64,000 bases of DNA from Arthrobacter sp. C2 (lineage in GTDB: Bacteria; Actinomycetota; Actinomycetes; Actinomycetales; Micrococcaceae): positions 62,001 to 126,000 of the forward strand of contig CP042428.1 in assembly GCA_024207135.1 (NCBI GenBank), given 5' to 3'. The notes under the pieces are model-generated. The model was given only the letters and a program-made list of their open reading frames with translations. It had not been told where the DNA came from and searched no databases. Of the stretch, positions 1,488 through 18,749 are shown piece after piece. The stretch's first letter is position 1; each line of letters starts with the position of its first letter. The translations under genes and the position numbers were made by a program.

Positions 1488-6680
<5,193 letters not shown>

Positions 6681-6851
6681 ACAAACACCACACCACCCCC
6701 CTGGGGTGGTTGGCAAGATACGCTGCGTCCACTATGCGGTCCCGAAACAACAACCCTTGTTGTCGCGGAACCACAACAACACAACAACCACTATTGTGGT
6801 CGTAACCCATTTTTCACGCCCCCGGAGAACCTCCGGGCAGTGCGTGGCTAG
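6681..6851 (+). other. 23S-5S spacer
   Basis: This short spacer contains two local stems built from AACAACAACC/TTGTTGT and ACCACAA/TTGTGGT (around 6745-6800), probably processing structures. There is no tRNA and no coding region. Confidence 0.6.
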
Positions 6852-6972
6852 AGTTACGGCGGTCATAGCGTGGGGGAAACGCCCGGTCCCATACCGAACC
6901 CGGAAGCTAAGACCCACCGCGCCGATGGTACTGCACTCGGGAGGGTGTGGGAGAGTAGGTCACCGCCGGACA
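6852..6972 (+). rRNA. rrf: 5S ribosomal RNA
   Basis: It has the typical 5S core CCATACCGAACCCGGAAG and a GGTACTGC segment. The 5' CGGCGG and 3' CCGCCG pair to form helix I. It is about 120 nt and completes a 16S-23S-5S operon. Confidence 0.95.
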
Positions 6973-6981
6973 CCCTGTCCC

Positions 6982-7012
6982 GGAACCCCCAAGCCTGTGG
7001 CTTGGGGGTTCC
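6982..7012 (+). terminator. rRNA operon terminal hairpin
   Basis: A perfect 14-bp stem (6982-6995 with 6999-7012) closes a 3-nt loop about 10 nt after 5S. No U-tract follows (GATGCTTA), so it is an atypical intrinsic terminator. A second perfect GC hairpin (7032-7041 with 7048-7057) lies just downstream. Confidence 0.7.
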
Positions 7013-7691
7013 GATGCTTAACGCCCGTTCCCGGCCCCCGGCACCCGCCGGGGGCCGCACCCGCTTAAGGACCGGCACCCGGCCGGCCGGCCGGGGGGCC
7101 GGTCGGGGGGCCGAAGGCCTGTACGGTAAGGTTTCGACCACGGACCCGGCCCATCCCACGCCTGGGCGTGCCGGCGCACCGGGGTGGCGCCGCGCCATCG
7201 CGAACCCCAACACATTGTGCCGTTTAGCCGGATGCCATCAAGGAATAGCAAAGTGTCACCCAGTGATGTGTGATGATAACTGACACGGCCCAGAGCAACT
7301 CTCAAAGCAATCTGTATGTCGGGCCGGAACCCGTTTCTGAGTGTGATGAGTCGATTCGTCGGACTGTTCTGCGATTCTATGGACTCTGCGCTTTTGGTCC
7401 ATAGAGGTTTCCCGCATTGCCGTGATTGGCAATTTGGCTCCAGGCGGGCCATGCGGGCGAGTATTCGTCGAGATGGATGTCATTCTGTTGCCGTAGTATG
7501 GATCAGTTGCGTTGCGCACTATTGGTGTAAATCACGGAGGCGACTGGGTACCCTCGACTAAGATAGATGCAGGCGTTCAATGCCCGGGTGAGGGCAAAAA
7601 GATTTTAGCGTGGGCTTCCGTGAGATGCGGAGGTCCACTGATTCATGCGTGGGGTCCAAAACTGAAGACCCTTTTGAGAGGAACACATCTA
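7013..7691. other. Intergenic region between rRNA operon and repeat-protein gene
   Basis: The first ~120 bp are extremely GC-rich with stacked inverted repeats (7032-7057, and GGCCGGCC repeats around 7081-7105). The composition then drops. An AT-richer area with possible promoter elements lies around 7480-7535, followed by about 150 bp of untranslated leader. The frame extending back to 7512 does not look like coding sequence. No gene is called. Confidence 0.5.
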
Positions 7692-10256
7692 GTGTCAAAC
7701 GAAAACAAGGGCTTCGGGTCGAAGGACAACCGCGACCGGAATGATTCTAAGTCGAACAACAGCGGAGGCTTCCGTCGCGGTGGCGACGATCGCAATGCCG
7801 GAGGCTTCAAGCCCCGCGAAGACCGCGGCGGATTCCGTGGCGGCGACGATCGCAATGCCGGAGGCTTCAAGCCCCGCGAAGACCGCGGCGGATTCCGTGG
7901 CGGCGACGATCGCAATGCCGGAGGCTTCAAGCCCCGCGAAGACCGCGGCGGATTCCGTGGCGGCAACGACCGTGGCGGCTTCCAGGGCGGAGACCGTCGC
8001 GAAGGCGGTTTCAAGCCCCGCGAAGATCGTGGCGGCTTCCAGGGTGGAGACCGTCGCGAAGGCGGTTTCAAGCCCCGTGAAGACCGCGGTGGATTCCAGG
8101 GTGGAGACCGCCGTGAAGGTGGCTTCAAGCCCCGTGAAGACCGCGGTGGATTCCAGGGTGGAGACCGCCGTGAAGGTGGCTTCAAGCCTCGCGAAGACCG
8201 CGGCGGATTCCGTGGCGGCAACGACCGTGGCGGCTTCCAGGGCGGAGACCGTCGCGAAGGCGGTTTCAAGCCCCGCGAAGACCGCGGTGGATTCCGTGGC
8301 GGCGACGATCGCCGCGAAGGCGGTTTCAAGCCCCGCGAAGACCGCGGTGGATTCCGTGGCGGCAACGACCGTGGCGGCTTCCAGGGCGGAGACCGTCGCG
8401 AAGGCGGTTTCAAGCCCCGCGAAGACCGTGGCGGATTCCGTGGCGGCAACGACCGTGGCGGCTTCCAGGGCGGAGACCGTCGCGAAGGCGGTTTCAAGCC
8501 CCGCGAAGACCGTGGCGGATTCCGTGGCGGCAACGACCGTGGTGGATTCCAGGGTGGAGACCGCCGTGAAGGTGGTTTCAAGCCCCGTGAAGACCGTGGT
8601 GGATTCCAGGGTGGAGACCGCCGTGAAGGTGGCTTCAAGCCCCGTGAAGACCGTGGTGGATTCCAGGCTGGAGACCGCCGTGAAGGCGGTTTCAAGCCTC
8701 GCGAGGACCGTGGAGGCTTCAAGCCCCGCGAAGATCGTGGTGGATTCCGTGGCGGCGACGATCGCCGCGAAGGCGGTTTCAAGCCCCGTGAAGATCGTGG
8801 CGGTTTCCGTGGCGGCGACGATCGCCGCGAAGGCGGTTTCAAGCCCCGCGAAGACCGCGGTGGATTCCGTGGCGGCGACGATCGCCGTGAAGGTGGCTTC
8901 AAGCCCCGTGAAGACCGCGGTGGCTTCAAGCCCCGTGAAGACCGCGGTGGATTCCGTGGCGGCGACGATCGCCGTGAAGGTGGCTTCAAGCCCCGCGAAG
9001 ACCGCGGTGGATTCCGTGGCGGCGACGATCGCCGCGAAGGCGGTTTCAAGCCCCGTGAAGACCGTGGCGGATTCCGTGGCGGCAACGACCGTGGCGGCTT
9101 CCAGGGCGGAGACCGTCGCGAAGGCGGTTTCAAGCCCCGCGAAGACCGCGGTGGTTTCAAACCCCGTGAAGATCGTGGTGGCTTTAAGCCCCGCGAAGAC
9201 CGTGGCGGATTCAAGCCGCGCACCGAGACCAGCACCGCTGATCTCGAGGCGTTGCGCGACCAGGAGGCTGCACGTCGTAACCACAACCCGGCCGACCTGC
9301 GTAGCTCGAACAGCCCGGAACGTGGCCGTTCCCCGGAAATTGACGATGACGTAACCGGCAAGGAGCTGGACCGCATCACCCGTGCGGAACTGCGCTACCT
9401 TGACGATGTCAACAACGAATGGGTTTCGAAGCACCTCGTCATGGCCGGTCGCTTGATCGACATCGATCCGCAGCTTGCCTATGAGCACACCATCGCAGCC
9501 AGCCGCCGTGGCGGCCGCGTGGCAGTGGTCCGCGAAGCAGTCGGCCTGGCCGCATATGCTGCCGGCGAGTTCGCCGAAGCCCTGCGCGAGTTCCGCACTC
9601 ACCGCCGCATCAGCGGTTCCAACTTGCATCTTCCACTGATTGCCGACGCCGAACGCGGCATCGGTCGTCCGGAAAAGACGCTGGAAATTGCACACAGCGA
9701 AGTCGTAGAGACACTGGATACCAACGGCAAGGTCGAAATGGCCATGGTTGCTTCGGGTGCCCAGCACGACTTGGGCAACCTCGAGGCTGCCTTGGCGGAA
9801 CTCGAGATCCCGCAGCTGGATCTGAACCGCGCGTTCAGCTACAGCCCGCGTTTGTTCTCCGCATACGCCGACGCACTGGAGAACCTGGGCCGCGACGAGG
9901 AAGCCGCAACCTGGCGCAAGCAGATCTCGGTGGCAGAGGAAGCCCTCGGCACCGGCGAATTCGCCGAGCCGGATATCATCGACCTCGGTGAAGACGACGA
10001 AACCGATGCACGCCGCCCGCGTGCCCGCGACATCGTGGAGCCGGAGACCGCCAAGGCAGAAGACGACGCGGAAACCCCGTCGGACGAAGCCGGCGAATCG
10101 CTGGCAGACGAAGACGCCGTCGAGGTTGTCGAAGCCGAATCGATCAACGATCCGGCCGAGGAATCGAACCCGGAACTCGACGATGAAGCACCTGTCGCCG
10201 AGGAACCCCGCGGAGCGTCCCCGGCCATCGACCAGGACGAAAACGACGAACGCTAG
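7692..10256 (+). CDS. TPR-like protein with expanded N-terminal RGG/FKPRED repeat domain
   Basis: The protein has 854 residues. The GTG start at 7692 is chosen because GAGAGGAA lies ~9 nt upstream and the open frame before it is not repeat-like. Residues ~37-510 are a low-complexity array: 24 copies of FKPREDRGG, separated by [30 protein letters not shown] or similar linkers, rich in Arg-Gly-Gly. Residues ~540-735 are alpha-helical and TPR-like. The last ~115 residues are strongly acidic. By position (after tyrS, before the HAD gene and tlyA) it corresponds to the mycobacterial Rv1691-type protein, which is only ~250 residues, so the extra length is the repeat. RGG repeats commonly bind RNA; an RNA-binding or condensate role is inference. 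The exact function is unknown. Confidence 0.85.
7800..9221 (+). repeat. Tandem repeat array encoding 24 FKPREDRGG units
   Basis: This is an in-frame coding repeat with units of about 27, 57, 60 and 84 bp. The 60-mers at 7801-7860 and 7861-7920 are identical, and 84-bp units of the [11 protein letters not shown] type recur nearly unchanged around 8350-8560. Linker variants are shuffled rather than strictly periodic, which suggests repeated unequal recombination. Because the unit length is a multiple of three, long stop-free frames also appear in other frames and on the opposite strand. Confidence 0.95.
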
Positions 10257-10271
10257 GAACTCGATTCACCC

Positions 10272-11264
10272 ATGCTGATCTCAGGTTTTGACGCGCTGCT
10301 CGCCGATCTCGACGGCGTCGTCTATGCCGGCAACGGTGCAATCCCCAAGGCCATCGAGGCCTTGAACCGATTGCAGGAACACTCGGTCGTCCTGGCGTAC
10401 ATCACGAACAACGCCTCCAGGTCACCGGGTGCCGTTGCCGAGCACCTGATTCAGCTGGGTGCCCCGGCGTCTGCAGAACAAGTATTTGGTTCTGCAGACG
10501 CCGGAGCCGAGCTTCTCGCACAAGAACTGCCCCTGGGCTCCAAGGTCCTGGTCGTGGGAAGCGCCTACCTGCGTGACTGCGTCAGCTCCTTCGGCATGGA
10601 AATCGTGGCCAGCCACCGTGACCTTCCCCAGGGCGTCATCCAGGGCTTCGACCCTTCCCTTGGGTGGAAGGACCTTGCCGAAGCGGCATTCGCCATCCAG
10701 GGCGGGGCGATCTGGGTTGCCACCAACACCGACCGGACCATCCCGCGCGCCGAGGGCATCGCCCCGGGCAACGGCTCCCTGGTCGAAGCCGTCAGCGCAG
10801 CCACCAATGTGCAGCCGCTGGTGGCCGGCAAACCCGAACCCCTGCTCTTCCGACGCGCGGCCGAAACCTTCGAGGCCACCCGGCCGCTGGTGGTCGGGGA
10901 CCGCCTCGACACCGACATCCTGGGCGGCAACAACGCCGGCTACAACACGGCCCTGGTGCTCACCGGGGTAGACTCGGCCCGCTCGGCCCTGGCCGCCCGC
11001 ACTGCGGAACGCCCCGACTACATCATTGCGGACCTCTCCGGGCTCTACGCGGATTACCCCGTCGTCGAGGTCACCGGCTTCGGCATCCGCTGCGGCGCTG
11101 CACTGGCCTCGGTCAACGGCGATGCCGTCACGGTCAACGGCGACGAAGCCGACCTGGATTCCTGGCGCGCGGCATGCGCGGCCTGGTGGCTGGCCCACCC
11201 GCACCAGGAACACGCCGTCGAACCGAAGCTCAGTTTTTCCCAAACCGTCGCCGCCAAGCCATAG
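10272..11264 (+). CDS. HAD-superfamily phosphatase (NagD-like, subfamily IIA)
   Basis: The protein has 330 residues. The nucleophile motif DLDGVVY is at residues 12-18 (Asp12, Asp14), motif II is TNNASRSP, and motif III/IV is GDRLDTDILGGNNAG. These are typical of p-nitrophenylphosphatase/NagD-like HAD hydrolases that remove phosphate from small molecules in the cytoplasm. The substrate cannot be told from sequence. The C-terminal ~60 residues, after the HAD fold, are extra. The gene begins 15 nt after the repeat-protein gene and precedes the small gene and tlyA, matching the mycobacterial order Rv1691-Rv1694. Confidence 0.9.
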   Translation: MLISGFDALLADLDGVVYAGNGAIPKAIEALNRLQEHSVVLAYITNNASRSPGAVAEHLIQLGAPASAEQVFGSADAGAELLAQELPLGSKVLVVGSAYLRDCVSSFGMEIVASHRDLPQGVIQGFDPSLGWKDLAEAAFAIQGGAIWVATNTDRTIPRAEGIAPGNGSLVEAVSAATNVQPLVAGKPEPLLFRRAAETFEATRPLVVGDRLDTDILGGNNAGYNTALVLTGVDSARSALAARTAERPDYIIADLSGLYADYPVVEVTGFGIRCGAALASVNGDAVTVNGDEADLDSWRAACAAWWLAHPHQEHAVEPKLSFSQTVAAKP

Positions 11265-11275
11265 GCTCTAAGGTG

Positions 11276-11488
11276 ATGACGAGCAACAACCACACACCAC
11301 CTGCCAACAGCGTCCCGGTCCCCGGACCGCGGCCCGCCTCCCCGCCGGAAACCGCCGGGGCGACAACCGACCTCGACGTCCTGGAAACCCTGTCCGAGGT
11401 CCCCGTCGCCGAGCACCTGGCCATCTTCGAGACCCTGCAGGCCTCGCTTGCCGCGGACCTCGATTCGACCTCGCAGGAGCACCCATGA
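11276..11488 (+). CDS. Small hypothetical protein upstream of tlyA
   Basis: The protein has 70 residues (ATG 11276; GTG 11273 is also possible). The N-terminal half is Pro/Ala-rich and disordered. The C-terminal half (LDVLETLSEVPVAEHLAIFETLQASLAADL) is a predicted amphipathic helix pair. Its stop overlaps the tlyA start (ATGA), so it is almost certainly translated and coupled. A small protein sits at this position in other actinobacteria (Rv1693-like). The function is unknown. Confidence 0.75.
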   Translation: MTSNNHTPPANSVPVPGPRPASPPETAGATTDLDVLETLSEVPVAEHLAIFETLQASLAADLDSTSQEHP

Positions 11489-12291
11489 GCCGACTCGACC
11501 AGGAATTGGTCACCCGTTCCCTGGCCCGCTCGCGCACCGACGCGGCCCGACTCATCGCCGAACAACGCGTGAGCGTGGACGGCACCATCGCGGCCAAAGC
11601 CGCCAAGAGCGTCTCGGACACCTCCGAGATCAGCGTCAAGGCCCCCGCCGGCGAGGAGTTCGTCAGCCGGGCCGGGCACAAGCTTGCCGGGGCCCTGGAA
11701 GCATTCTCACGGATCGAGGTCGCCGGAAAGCGCTGCCTCGATGCCGGGGCCTCCACGGGAGGCTTCACCGACGTGCTGCTGCGCCGCGGCGCCGACCACG
11801 TCGAGGCCGTGGACGTCGGACACGGCCAGCTGGTTGCCGAACTGCGCCAGGACCCCCGCGTGCACGTGCACGAAGGCATGAACGTGCGTTACCTGGACCC
11901 GGCGGACATCGGGGGCGTCGTGGCCCTGGTCGTGGCCGATTTGTCCTTCATTTCGCTGACCATGGTCATGCGCGCCCTGGCCGGGGCCACCGAACCCGAC
12001 GGAGACTTGGTGCTGATGGTCAAGCCCCAATTCGAGATCGGCCGCGAACAGCTTTCCCGCACCGGGGTCGTCTCCAGCCCGACCCAGCGACGCAAGGCGG
12101 TGGATGCGGTGATGGCCTCGGCCACCGCGTCAGGGCTTCAGGTTTTGGGCCTCGCCCGCAGCCCGCTGCCGGGCCAGGACGGCAACGTCGAGTTCTTCCT
12201 GTGGCTGGGCAAAGGTGCCGGTCACATTCCCGATGCTTCTCCACAAGCCCGCGTCGGCACCGACGCGTGGCCCGGTGTTGACTATTCTTAG
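11485..12291 (+). CDS. tlyA: TlyA-family rRNA 2'-O-methyltransferase / hemolysin-like
   Basis: The protein has 268 residues. An N-terminal S4 RNA-binding domain (~1-60) is followed by an FtsJ-like SAM-dependent methyltransferase with the SAM motif DAGASTGGFTD (86-96). The catalytic lysines are represented by GHK (Lys66) and MVKPQFE. Family members 2'-O-methylate cytidines in 16S and 23S rRNA, which affects capreomycin sensitivity; the hemolysin name is historical. It sits in a tight run with nadK and recN, a conserved actinobacterial arrangement. Confidence 0.93.
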   Translation: MSRLDQELVTRSLARSRTDAARLIAEQRVSVDGTIAAKAAKSVSDTSEISVKAPAGEEFVSRAGHKLAGALEAFSRIEVAGKRCLDAGASTGGFTDVLLRRGADHVEAVDVGHGQLVAELRQDPRVHVHEGMNVRYLDPADIGGVVALVVADLSFISLTMVMRALAGATEPDGDLVLMVKPQFEIGREQLSRTGVVSSPTQRRKAVDAVMASATASGLQVLGLARSPLPGQDGNVEFFLWLGKGAGHIPDASPQARVGTDAWPGVDYS

Positions 12292-17573: not shown

Positions 17574-18749
17574 ATGCACACAGGAGCCGACGACGCCACC
17601 ATGCGCCTTGCGGTGGTTCCCGAGACGGTTTCGCTGCCCCGCCCGGGCGTGGCACCGACGGTGCGCATCAGCCCCGTCGATTCGACCCTCCGGCTGGAAA
17701 CGGTTCCGGACCCGGTTTCGGTTCCCGACCCGGCCCCGGTTCCCGACCCGGCCCCGGTTCCCGACCCGGCCCCGGTTCCCGACCCGGTCCCGCAGCCAGG
17801 GCCGGATCCGACGGAACTGCCCATCGGCAAGCACCTGGCCAGCTACCTGCAGCACCTGGCCGTCGAACGCGGCATGGCGCGGAACACCGTCAGCGCCTAC
17901 CGACGCGACCTGTACCGCTACGCGGCCTACCTGCATGGCCAGGACGTGCATACCCCGGACCAGGTGACCCTGGGACACCTGACCTCGTTCGCCCAGGCCG
18001 TGCGCGACGGAGCCGACGGTGCCGCACCGCTGAGCGCCCGCTCGGCCGCACGCACCATTGTCGCGGTGCGCGGCGTGCACAAGTTCTGGGAACTCGAAGG
18101 CCTGGCGCCCACCAACCCCGCCGTGGACCTGCACCCGCCGCAGGCCGGGCGCCGCCTGCCCAAGGCCATCTCCGTCGCTGAGGTCACCGCGATCCTTGAC
18201 TCGGTCTCCATCGAGACCTCCGCCGGCCTGCGCGACAAGGCCATCCTGGAATTCCTGTACTCCACCGGAGCCCGTATCTCCGAGGCCGTCGGCCTGGACG
18301 TCGATGACCTGCACCTGGAACGCCCCGCCAGCGGACCGGCTGTGGTGCGGCTCTTCGGCAAGGGCTCCAAGGAACGGATCGTGCCGCTGGGCTCGTACGC
18401 GATCGATGCCCTGAACGCCTACCTGGTCCGCGGACGACCCGAACTGGTCGCCAAGGGCAAGGGCACCGCCGCGCTCTTCCTGAACCAACGCGGCGGTCGT
18501 CTCTCGCGCCAATCCGCCTGGACGGTGCTCACCAAGGCCGCCGAGCGCGCCGGCATCGAACAAGACGTTTCCCCGCACACCCTGCGCCACTCCTTCGCCA
18601 CGCACCTGCTCGAGGGCGGGGCCGACGTGCGCGTGGTCCAGGAATTGCTGGGGCACGCCTCCGTCACCACCACGCAGGTCTACACGCTGGTCACGGCCGA
18701 CACCCTGCGCGAAATCTACGCCGCAGCCCACCCGCGCGCGAACCTCTAA
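17574..18749 (+). CDS. xerD: Tyrosine recombinase XerD with Pro-rich N-terminal extension
   Basis: The protein has 391 residues; XerD is usually ~300. All catalytic residues are present by position: Arg234 (TGARISE), Lys263 (FGKGSKER), His335 and Arg338 (HTLRHSF), His361 (LGHAS) and Tyr370 (QVYTL). The SAM-like core-binding domain begins near residue 84 (HLASYLQHLAVERGM). The first ~80 residues are an unusual extension carrying five VPDPxP repeats. XerD works with XerC at dif to resolve chromosome dimers. The start has GGAAAAG upstream, and no clearly better internal start with a ribosome binding site was seen. It follows the nudix gene by 18 nt. Confidence 0.93.
   Translation: MHTGADDATMRLAVVPETVSLPRPGVAPTVRISPVDSTLRLETVPDPVSVPDPAPVPDPAPVPDPAPVPDPVPQPGPDPTELPIGKHLASYLQHLAVERGMARNTVSAYRRDLYRYAAYLHGQDVHTPDQVTLGHLTSFAQAVRDGADGAAPLSARSAARTIVAVRGVHKFWELEGLAPTNPAVDLHPPQAGRRLPKAISVAEVTAILDSVSIETSAGLRDKAILEFLYSTGARISEAVGLDVDDLHLERPASGPAVVRLFGKGSKERIVPLGSYAIDALNAYLVRGRPELVAKGKGTAALFLNQRGGRLSRQSAWTVLTKAAERAGIEQDVSPHTLRHSFATHLLEGGADVRVVQELLGHASVTTTQVYTLVTADTLREIYAAAHPRANL
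17702..17791 (+). repeat. Five 18-bp tandem repeats within xerD
   Basis: There are five 18-bp units starting at 17702, 17720, 17738, 17756 and 17774; the second, third and fourth are identical (GGTTCCCGACCCGGCCCC). They encode VPDPxx units in the N-terminal extension of XerD. Confidence 0.9.

Follow-up and report, generated by a model that had tools for sequence, protein, structure and literature searches.

An arginine-rich mixed-charge repeat arm on a class-wide actinomycete TPR-like protein encoded beside an rRNA operon

The closest described counterparts of the protein analyzed here are the mycobacterial TPR-repeat proteins Rv1691 and MSMEG_3754, which resemble it in their domain and in gene order with tyrS, a HAD gene, tlyA and recN. 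M. smegmatis MSMEG_3754 is among the high-confidence proteins of an AP-MS study of RNA polymerase; when tagged it brought down no DNA, and the authors regard it as possibly RNA-associated. This AP-MS followed formaldehyde treatment and is an indirect measure of association (PMC7092591). A ClpC1 interactome table also includes MSMEG_3754 (PMC10433963). Disordered arms occur in other bacterial systems that condense with RNA: RNA-driven condensation was measured for Bacteroides Rho (PMC13269538), and RNase E bodies are an RNA-driven condensate scaffold (PMC10412687). The likeness to these lies in a charged disordered region on a conserved folded RNA-metabolism domain; the Rho and RNase E arms, however, belong to known RNA-acting proteins.

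Nuclear-speckle proteins contain arginine-enriched mixed-charge domains, reportedly described by Greig in 2020. For RGG/RG-box RNA-binding regions, strong net positive charge is the usual criterion. The mixed-charge domains enter nuclear speckles, helped by positive net charge, and short evenly alternating R/D peptides showed no phase separation (PMC9324279). Among the literature matches listed, mostly open-access papers, none dealt with the arginine-rich arm or with the adjacency of rRNA and a TPR gene.

The window, by which we mean the whole 64,000-nt stretch of Arthrobacter sp. C2 contig CP042428.1 that was analyzed, encodes a protein with an N-terminal arm of 539 aa that contains a long repeat array, followed by a helical domain and an acidic tail (Table 1). 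An alternative TTG start at 7512 was discounted: four genomes (G010, G014, G004 and G002) do not preserve the frame upstream of 7692, whereas the GTG at 7692 and its Shine-Dalgarno-like sequence are both retained in all aligned genus rows. The leader contains a hairpin that is possibly regulatory, with 10-11 of its 11 pairs preserved in the genus genomes matched. One relative, G003, carries one-side changes at four of these pairs, with pairing maintained. The leader matched no known RNA above Rfam cut-offs, giving chance-level scores only, and no sigma-70-type promoter was found on the + strand between 6800 and 7760.

Table 1. Features of the locus, in window coordinates
Feature	Position	Strand	Basis
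rRNA operon 16S-23S-5S, directly upstream	1488..6971	+	RNA search
Two strong hairpins after 5S, possible rRNA-operon terminator region	6981..7057	+	folding z -6.15
Leader hairpin, 11 bp, conserved, 53 nt before start codon	7610..7638	+	matched in 9/10 genus genomes
Shine-Dalgarno-like GAGAGGA	7676..7682	+	read from sequence; conserved in genus alignment
Whole gene, 854 aa, GTG start; stop ends at 10256	7692..10256	+	open reading frame; start and Shine-Dalgarno-like sequence kept in 10/10 genus rows
FKPREDRGG array, 472 aa from first to last FKPR, Arg-rich mixed-charge disordered arm	7806..9221	+	repeat counts, composition, model confidence
TPR-like all-helical domain, conserved, 221 aa by profile	9309..9971	+	profile searches; AF2; Foldseek
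Acidic disordered C-terminal tail, 94 aa, net charge -30	9972..10253	+	sequence; AlphaFold confidence
HAD-type hydrolase gene, 15 bp past stop	10272..11264	+	sequence
TlyA-like rRNA 2'-O-methyltransferase gene, same cluster	11485..12291	+	gene order

The count, frame and coordinates of the first-pass annotation are confirmed. The array contains 24 exact copies of FKPREDRGG and is closed by a 25th FKPR. Its other motifs are FQGGDRRE (10 copies), FRGGDDRR (6) and FRGGNDRGG (6). In all, 51 Phe-initial blocks were counted, the first of which directly precedes 7806, and RGG occurs 46 times across the whole protein. Tandem Repeats Finder returned many overlapping rows on the array, and Arg makes up 22% of it, against 4.5-9.3% in six neighboring proteins. 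The array is a non-chance feature. Long antisense and +1 frames over it (578, 690 and 537 aa) were dismissed as shadows of the stop-free repeated unit. No second array was found elsewhere in the genome at E up to 1; the second match belongs to this same frame. A contig end cuts the open frame within or close to the array in five of the 15 genus assemblies (L004, L006, L010, L013 and L015), a kind of break that is expected because a long repeat lies close to rRNA.

The composition of the array does not fit the earlier description of a basic, aromatic block opposed to the acidic tail. Besides Arg it contains 31% Gly, 12% Asp, 9% Glu, 10.6% Phe and 5% Lys; with 21% Asp+Glu, a charged fraction of 0.48 and a net charge of +0.068 per residue, it cannot be called basic. 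Its charges are also very evenly mixed, with a kappa of 0.046 versus 0.168 for shuffled sequences (sd 0.022), as calculated with our own approximate implementation, which is scaled by four segregated layouts only. The array is thus an evenly mixed, near-neutral polyampholyte and not a blocky one. It shares with the speckle-type mixed-charge domains a strong excess of Arg over Lys, more Asp than Glu, near-neutrality and even mixing, but it is bacterial, it consists of ordered repeats joined to a TPR-like domain and an acidic tail, and its Gly and Phe contents and charged fraction mean that it is not made primarily of Arg and Asp. Like RGG boxes it has clustered RGG/RG and aromatics, with a Phe at the start of each block, although its acidic residues make it much less cationic than is typical of an RGG box and leave it without strong positive charge. 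Composition and even charge together indicate that it resembles a Gly/Phe-diluted arginine-enriched mixed-charge domain more than a basic RGG box. Given that short evenly alternating R/D peptides did not phase-separate, condensation of so evenly mixed an array cannot be assumed; the regularly spaced Phe residues could alter its phase behavior.

Structure prediction agrees with the view, already taken in the first-pass annotation, that the array is followed by a helical domain and then a strongly acidic tail. An AF2 model of 9222-10010, built from a 43-sequence alignment, is all helix with a mean pLDDT of 89.4. In an AlphaFold model of the array end (from 8919 on), domain and tail, built from a 26-orthologue alignment, pLDDT exceeds 90 over most of the TPR-like domain and is about 40 over the array end and tail, which lack secondary structure; taking AlphaFold confidence as a stand-in for a disorder predictor, both flanking regions are predicted to be disordered. 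Of 1,422 Foldseek rows (E up to 10), the best 50 come mainly from TPR proteins (best E 6e-4, query TM up to 0.58), and the fold is therefore best described as TPR-like on the strength of the model, with no close relative among those 50. Pfam TPR families fall below their curated cut-off (the best, TPR_15, scores 19.0 bits vs 26.2), NCBIfam gives no match to the protein, and a similarity to SRP72 (E 0.08) was discarded as not significant.

The host is a Paeniglutamicibacter-like actinomycete. By homology, the protein is the Paeniglutamicibacter form of a class-wide orthologue group that includes Rv1691 and MSMEG_3754: the helical domain is homologous, and a Mycobacterium record (L118) aligns with it. 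Named records at least 89% identical come from six Paeniglutamicibacter, two Arthrobacter sp. and one Micrococcaceae assembly, and the corresponding stretch of P. psychrophenolicus is 99.6% identical. Profile searches found the domain in 15/15 genus, 147/149 family and 142/149 order genomes, in 176/197 class genomes (163/173 of those of good quality) and in 120/296 phylum genomes. Each of the 147 positive family genomes has a single match; a pair of matches was seen in G276 (order) and in each of four class genomes (G503, G611, G646 and G667), so that some class members carry a second copy. The called proteins of five mycobacterial-looking genomes measure 234-278 aa, in agreement with the counterpart of about 250 residues named in the first-pass annotation. 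Their reading frames have a short Arg/Gly-rich N-terminus, which in two lies 5' of the called start; these arms are tens of residues long and have no array, in contrast to the 539-aa arm of the window protein.

To place the arm in this group, 211 genomes were read, from hand-chosen regions that favored long contigs (sets of 60 and 80). The 179 with an untruncated start were used for charge counts, 32 having been dropped because of a contig-end cut, a missing start codon or masked letters; start codons were called heuristically, and the calls for G386 and G439 (both 9 aa) and for G059 (4 aa) probably lie too deep in the frame. The N-terminus is net positive in 177 of the 179 orthologues and the tail net negative in 169. 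Among the 169 N-termini of at least 30 aa, Arg reaches at least 15% in 167 and Gly at least 10% in 162, and Arg exceeds Lys in every one. An Arg-rich arm is thus found across the class, and the expansion is not private to the genus. Called arms are 22 to 669 aa long, leaving aside doubtful shorter calls. Close relatives lacking an Arg/Gly-rich N-terminus, which the earlier reading, in combination with a purified domain that binds no RNA, would have taken to argue for a neutral array, exist in part: five family genomes have arms of 22 aa (four genomes) or 27 aa (the fifth) without RGG, yet these are still 27-30% Arg. Without correction for descent, the net charges of N-terminus and tail are inversely related across the 179 orthologues (Spearman -0.55; -0.53 in the family, -0.41 in the order and -0.58 outside it); within the genus the correlation is absent (0.13, n=10). 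Aromatic share rises with arm length (Spearman 0.70, n=179).

Arrays cover at least 30% of the arm in 76 of the 179 orthologues, and their motifs are lineage-specific: FKPREDRGG in the host genus, GGDRREGGF in Zafaria, RRDDR types in several class genomes, and others elsewhere. Outside the genus, FKPR followed by Glu or Asp occurs 4 times in G067 and once in G040. On the domain tree, a quick tree with long branches flagged, array labels change at least 21 times, 10 of these changes being forced by starred branches. The arm repeats have thus expanded many times, convergently and with different motifs.

Compared with base-shuffled DNA (n=160), Asp+Glu is higher in 159 arms, Arg in 154 and Gly in 140, and the acidic share is three times the base expectation; net charge per residue is confined to 0.056-0.139 (5-95%, n=160), and Arg is preferred over Lys with a median share of 0.96. 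Aromatics, by contrast, exceed expectation in only 96 of 160 (medians 0.043 vs 0.038), which makes Phe stickers a feature of long arrays and not of the family. Among like blocks of the window array, third codon positions hold 85 of 92 mismatches, and distinct site variants comprise 22 synonymous and 3 nonsynonymous changes, against an expected synonymous share of 0.27 (P 2.7e-10). A synonymous excess was seen in 9/9 genomes examined, with P from 7.5e-4 to 5e-17; as the genomes are related, and as the grouping of blocks used their length and first two residues, changes in which go uncounted, these counts are neither independent nor complete. The repeats are thus under amino-acid-level constraint. 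Of the earlier proposal that Phe and Arg-Gly-Gly act as stickers, the part that stands is that Arg/Gly/Phe repeats are held at the amino-acid level; an aromatic enrichment across the group does not. The order of blocks behaves differently. Three genomes with 98.6-99.5% identical domains differ by 16-18 edits among 46-51 blocks (about 29 when shuffled), and block order in G003, whose domain is 95-96% identical, matches no better than shuffled. Unit sequence and composition are thus kept, block number and order being much freer.

The gene lies 720 bp beyond the 5S gene, in the order tyrS - (rRNA) - TPR - HAD - tlyA - nadK - recN. In the intervening DNA, the consensus scan, which requires a T run, did not recognize the hairpins after 5S as a terminator. 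In some of the genomes with a long enough upstream read, tyrS likewise precedes the rRNA. Mycobacterial rrnB has been published as lying downstream of tyrS, which fits this order (PMC10218544); the genes listed for the lprJ-recN operon match it as well (PMC3072309). Outside the order, where at least 2.5 kb was read, rRNA lies within 1 kb upstream on the same strand in 28/31 genomes, further up in 2 and was not seen in 1, so that the adjacency is old. It is broken in parts of the family, for which the corresponding numbers are 10 within 1 kb, 9 further up and 7 with none seen (n=26). With at least 1 kb read, rRNA is within 1 kb in 31/39 genomes outside the order, 14/17 in the order, 21/57 in the family and 6/6 in the genus; median distances to the rRNA gene are 108 bp in the order and 114-119 bp outside it. 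Five family genomes have no rRNA in at least 5.5 kb upstream and still have long arms (G033, 320 aa; G058, 200; G060, 314; G102, 322; G137, 359), so that arm length is independent of rRNA adjacency.

These long arms away from rRNA make it unlikely that the protein assembles in cis on the rRNA of the adjacent operon as a blocky polyampholyte, as the first-pass annotation had proposed; such assembly is not needed. Although the old adjacency speaks for it, strong hairpins stand between 5S and the gene and the array is not blocky, and we consider cis assembly very improbable. The reading that we prefer, tentatively, is that the disordered Arg-rich arm and TPR-like adaptor make up a trans-acting RNA- or RNP-associated protein. 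The preference comes from the AP-MS result for MSMEG_3754: copurification with RNA polymerase and no DNA recovered favor a role on the RNA side (PMC7092591). In such a protein the arm would make many weak Arg/Phe contacts with RNA or ribonucleoprotein, in trans and near transcription or ribosome assembly; the TPR groove would recruit partners; the acidic tail would compete for the arm and maintain its solubility; and repeat number would set valency, block order being of little importance. We infer, on this reading, that the arm may bind RNA and condense.

The freedom of block order, the wide span of called arm lengths and the frequent gain or loss of arrays are also what would be expected of a passive, composition-constrained linker, whose length unequal recombination alters cheaply and from which selection removes only hydrophobic or strongly charging changes, the TPR domain holding the function. 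We regard this as somewhat unlikely, since the synonymous excess within repeats, the narrow net charge, the preference for Arg over Lys, the threefold acidic share and the climb of aromatics with length all count against it. Alternatively, the arm may be no RNA arm and may instead dock on the acidic tail, RNA polymerase, ribosomal proteins or ClpC1 and so control the TPR groove. The inverse charge relation between arm and tail would fit, as would the listing of MSMEG_3754 with RNA polymerase (PMC7092591) and ClpC1 (PMC10433963); yet the correlation is uncorrected for descent and vanishes within the genus, the array is near neutral, and short-arm members exist, so that we judge docking unlikely. 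More ambitious, and decidedly doubtful, is an extension of the RNA-associated reading in which actinomycetes have a dedicated scaffold, linked to an rRNA operon, that gathers nascent rRNA or ribosome-assembly factors into a nucleolus-like condensate. Lineage-specific expansion of the Arg repeats would set its cohesion, and the system would have evolved convergently with the mixed-charge domains of eukaryotic speckles and nucleoli. What is new at this locus is a class-wide rRNA-linked protein whose Arg-rich mixed-charge arm has been expanded convergently, rather than an array private to one genus. If the trans-acting reading is right, a widespread uncharacterized actinomycete protein would be an RNA-associated scaffold, its repeatedly expanded arms, with composition held, would be a natural experiment on the sequence rules of disordered regions, and it would offer a concrete test of how bacterial rRNA synthesis is organized.

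A relative of the HAD gene is next downstream in 138 of 204 genomes with at least 400 nt read, is fused in 1 and gave no match in 65; in 7 further genomes the downstream read was too short for this count. The fusion, in G574 (L202/L282), joins the TPR domain in frame to the HAD hydrolase and hints at a functional link between the two genes. Elsewhere in the window, an 18-nt tandem repeat of 5.1 copies (17701-17792) lies inside an ORF at 17574-18749, presumably that of a XerD-like recombinase, where it encodes Pro-rich repeats close to the N-terminus.
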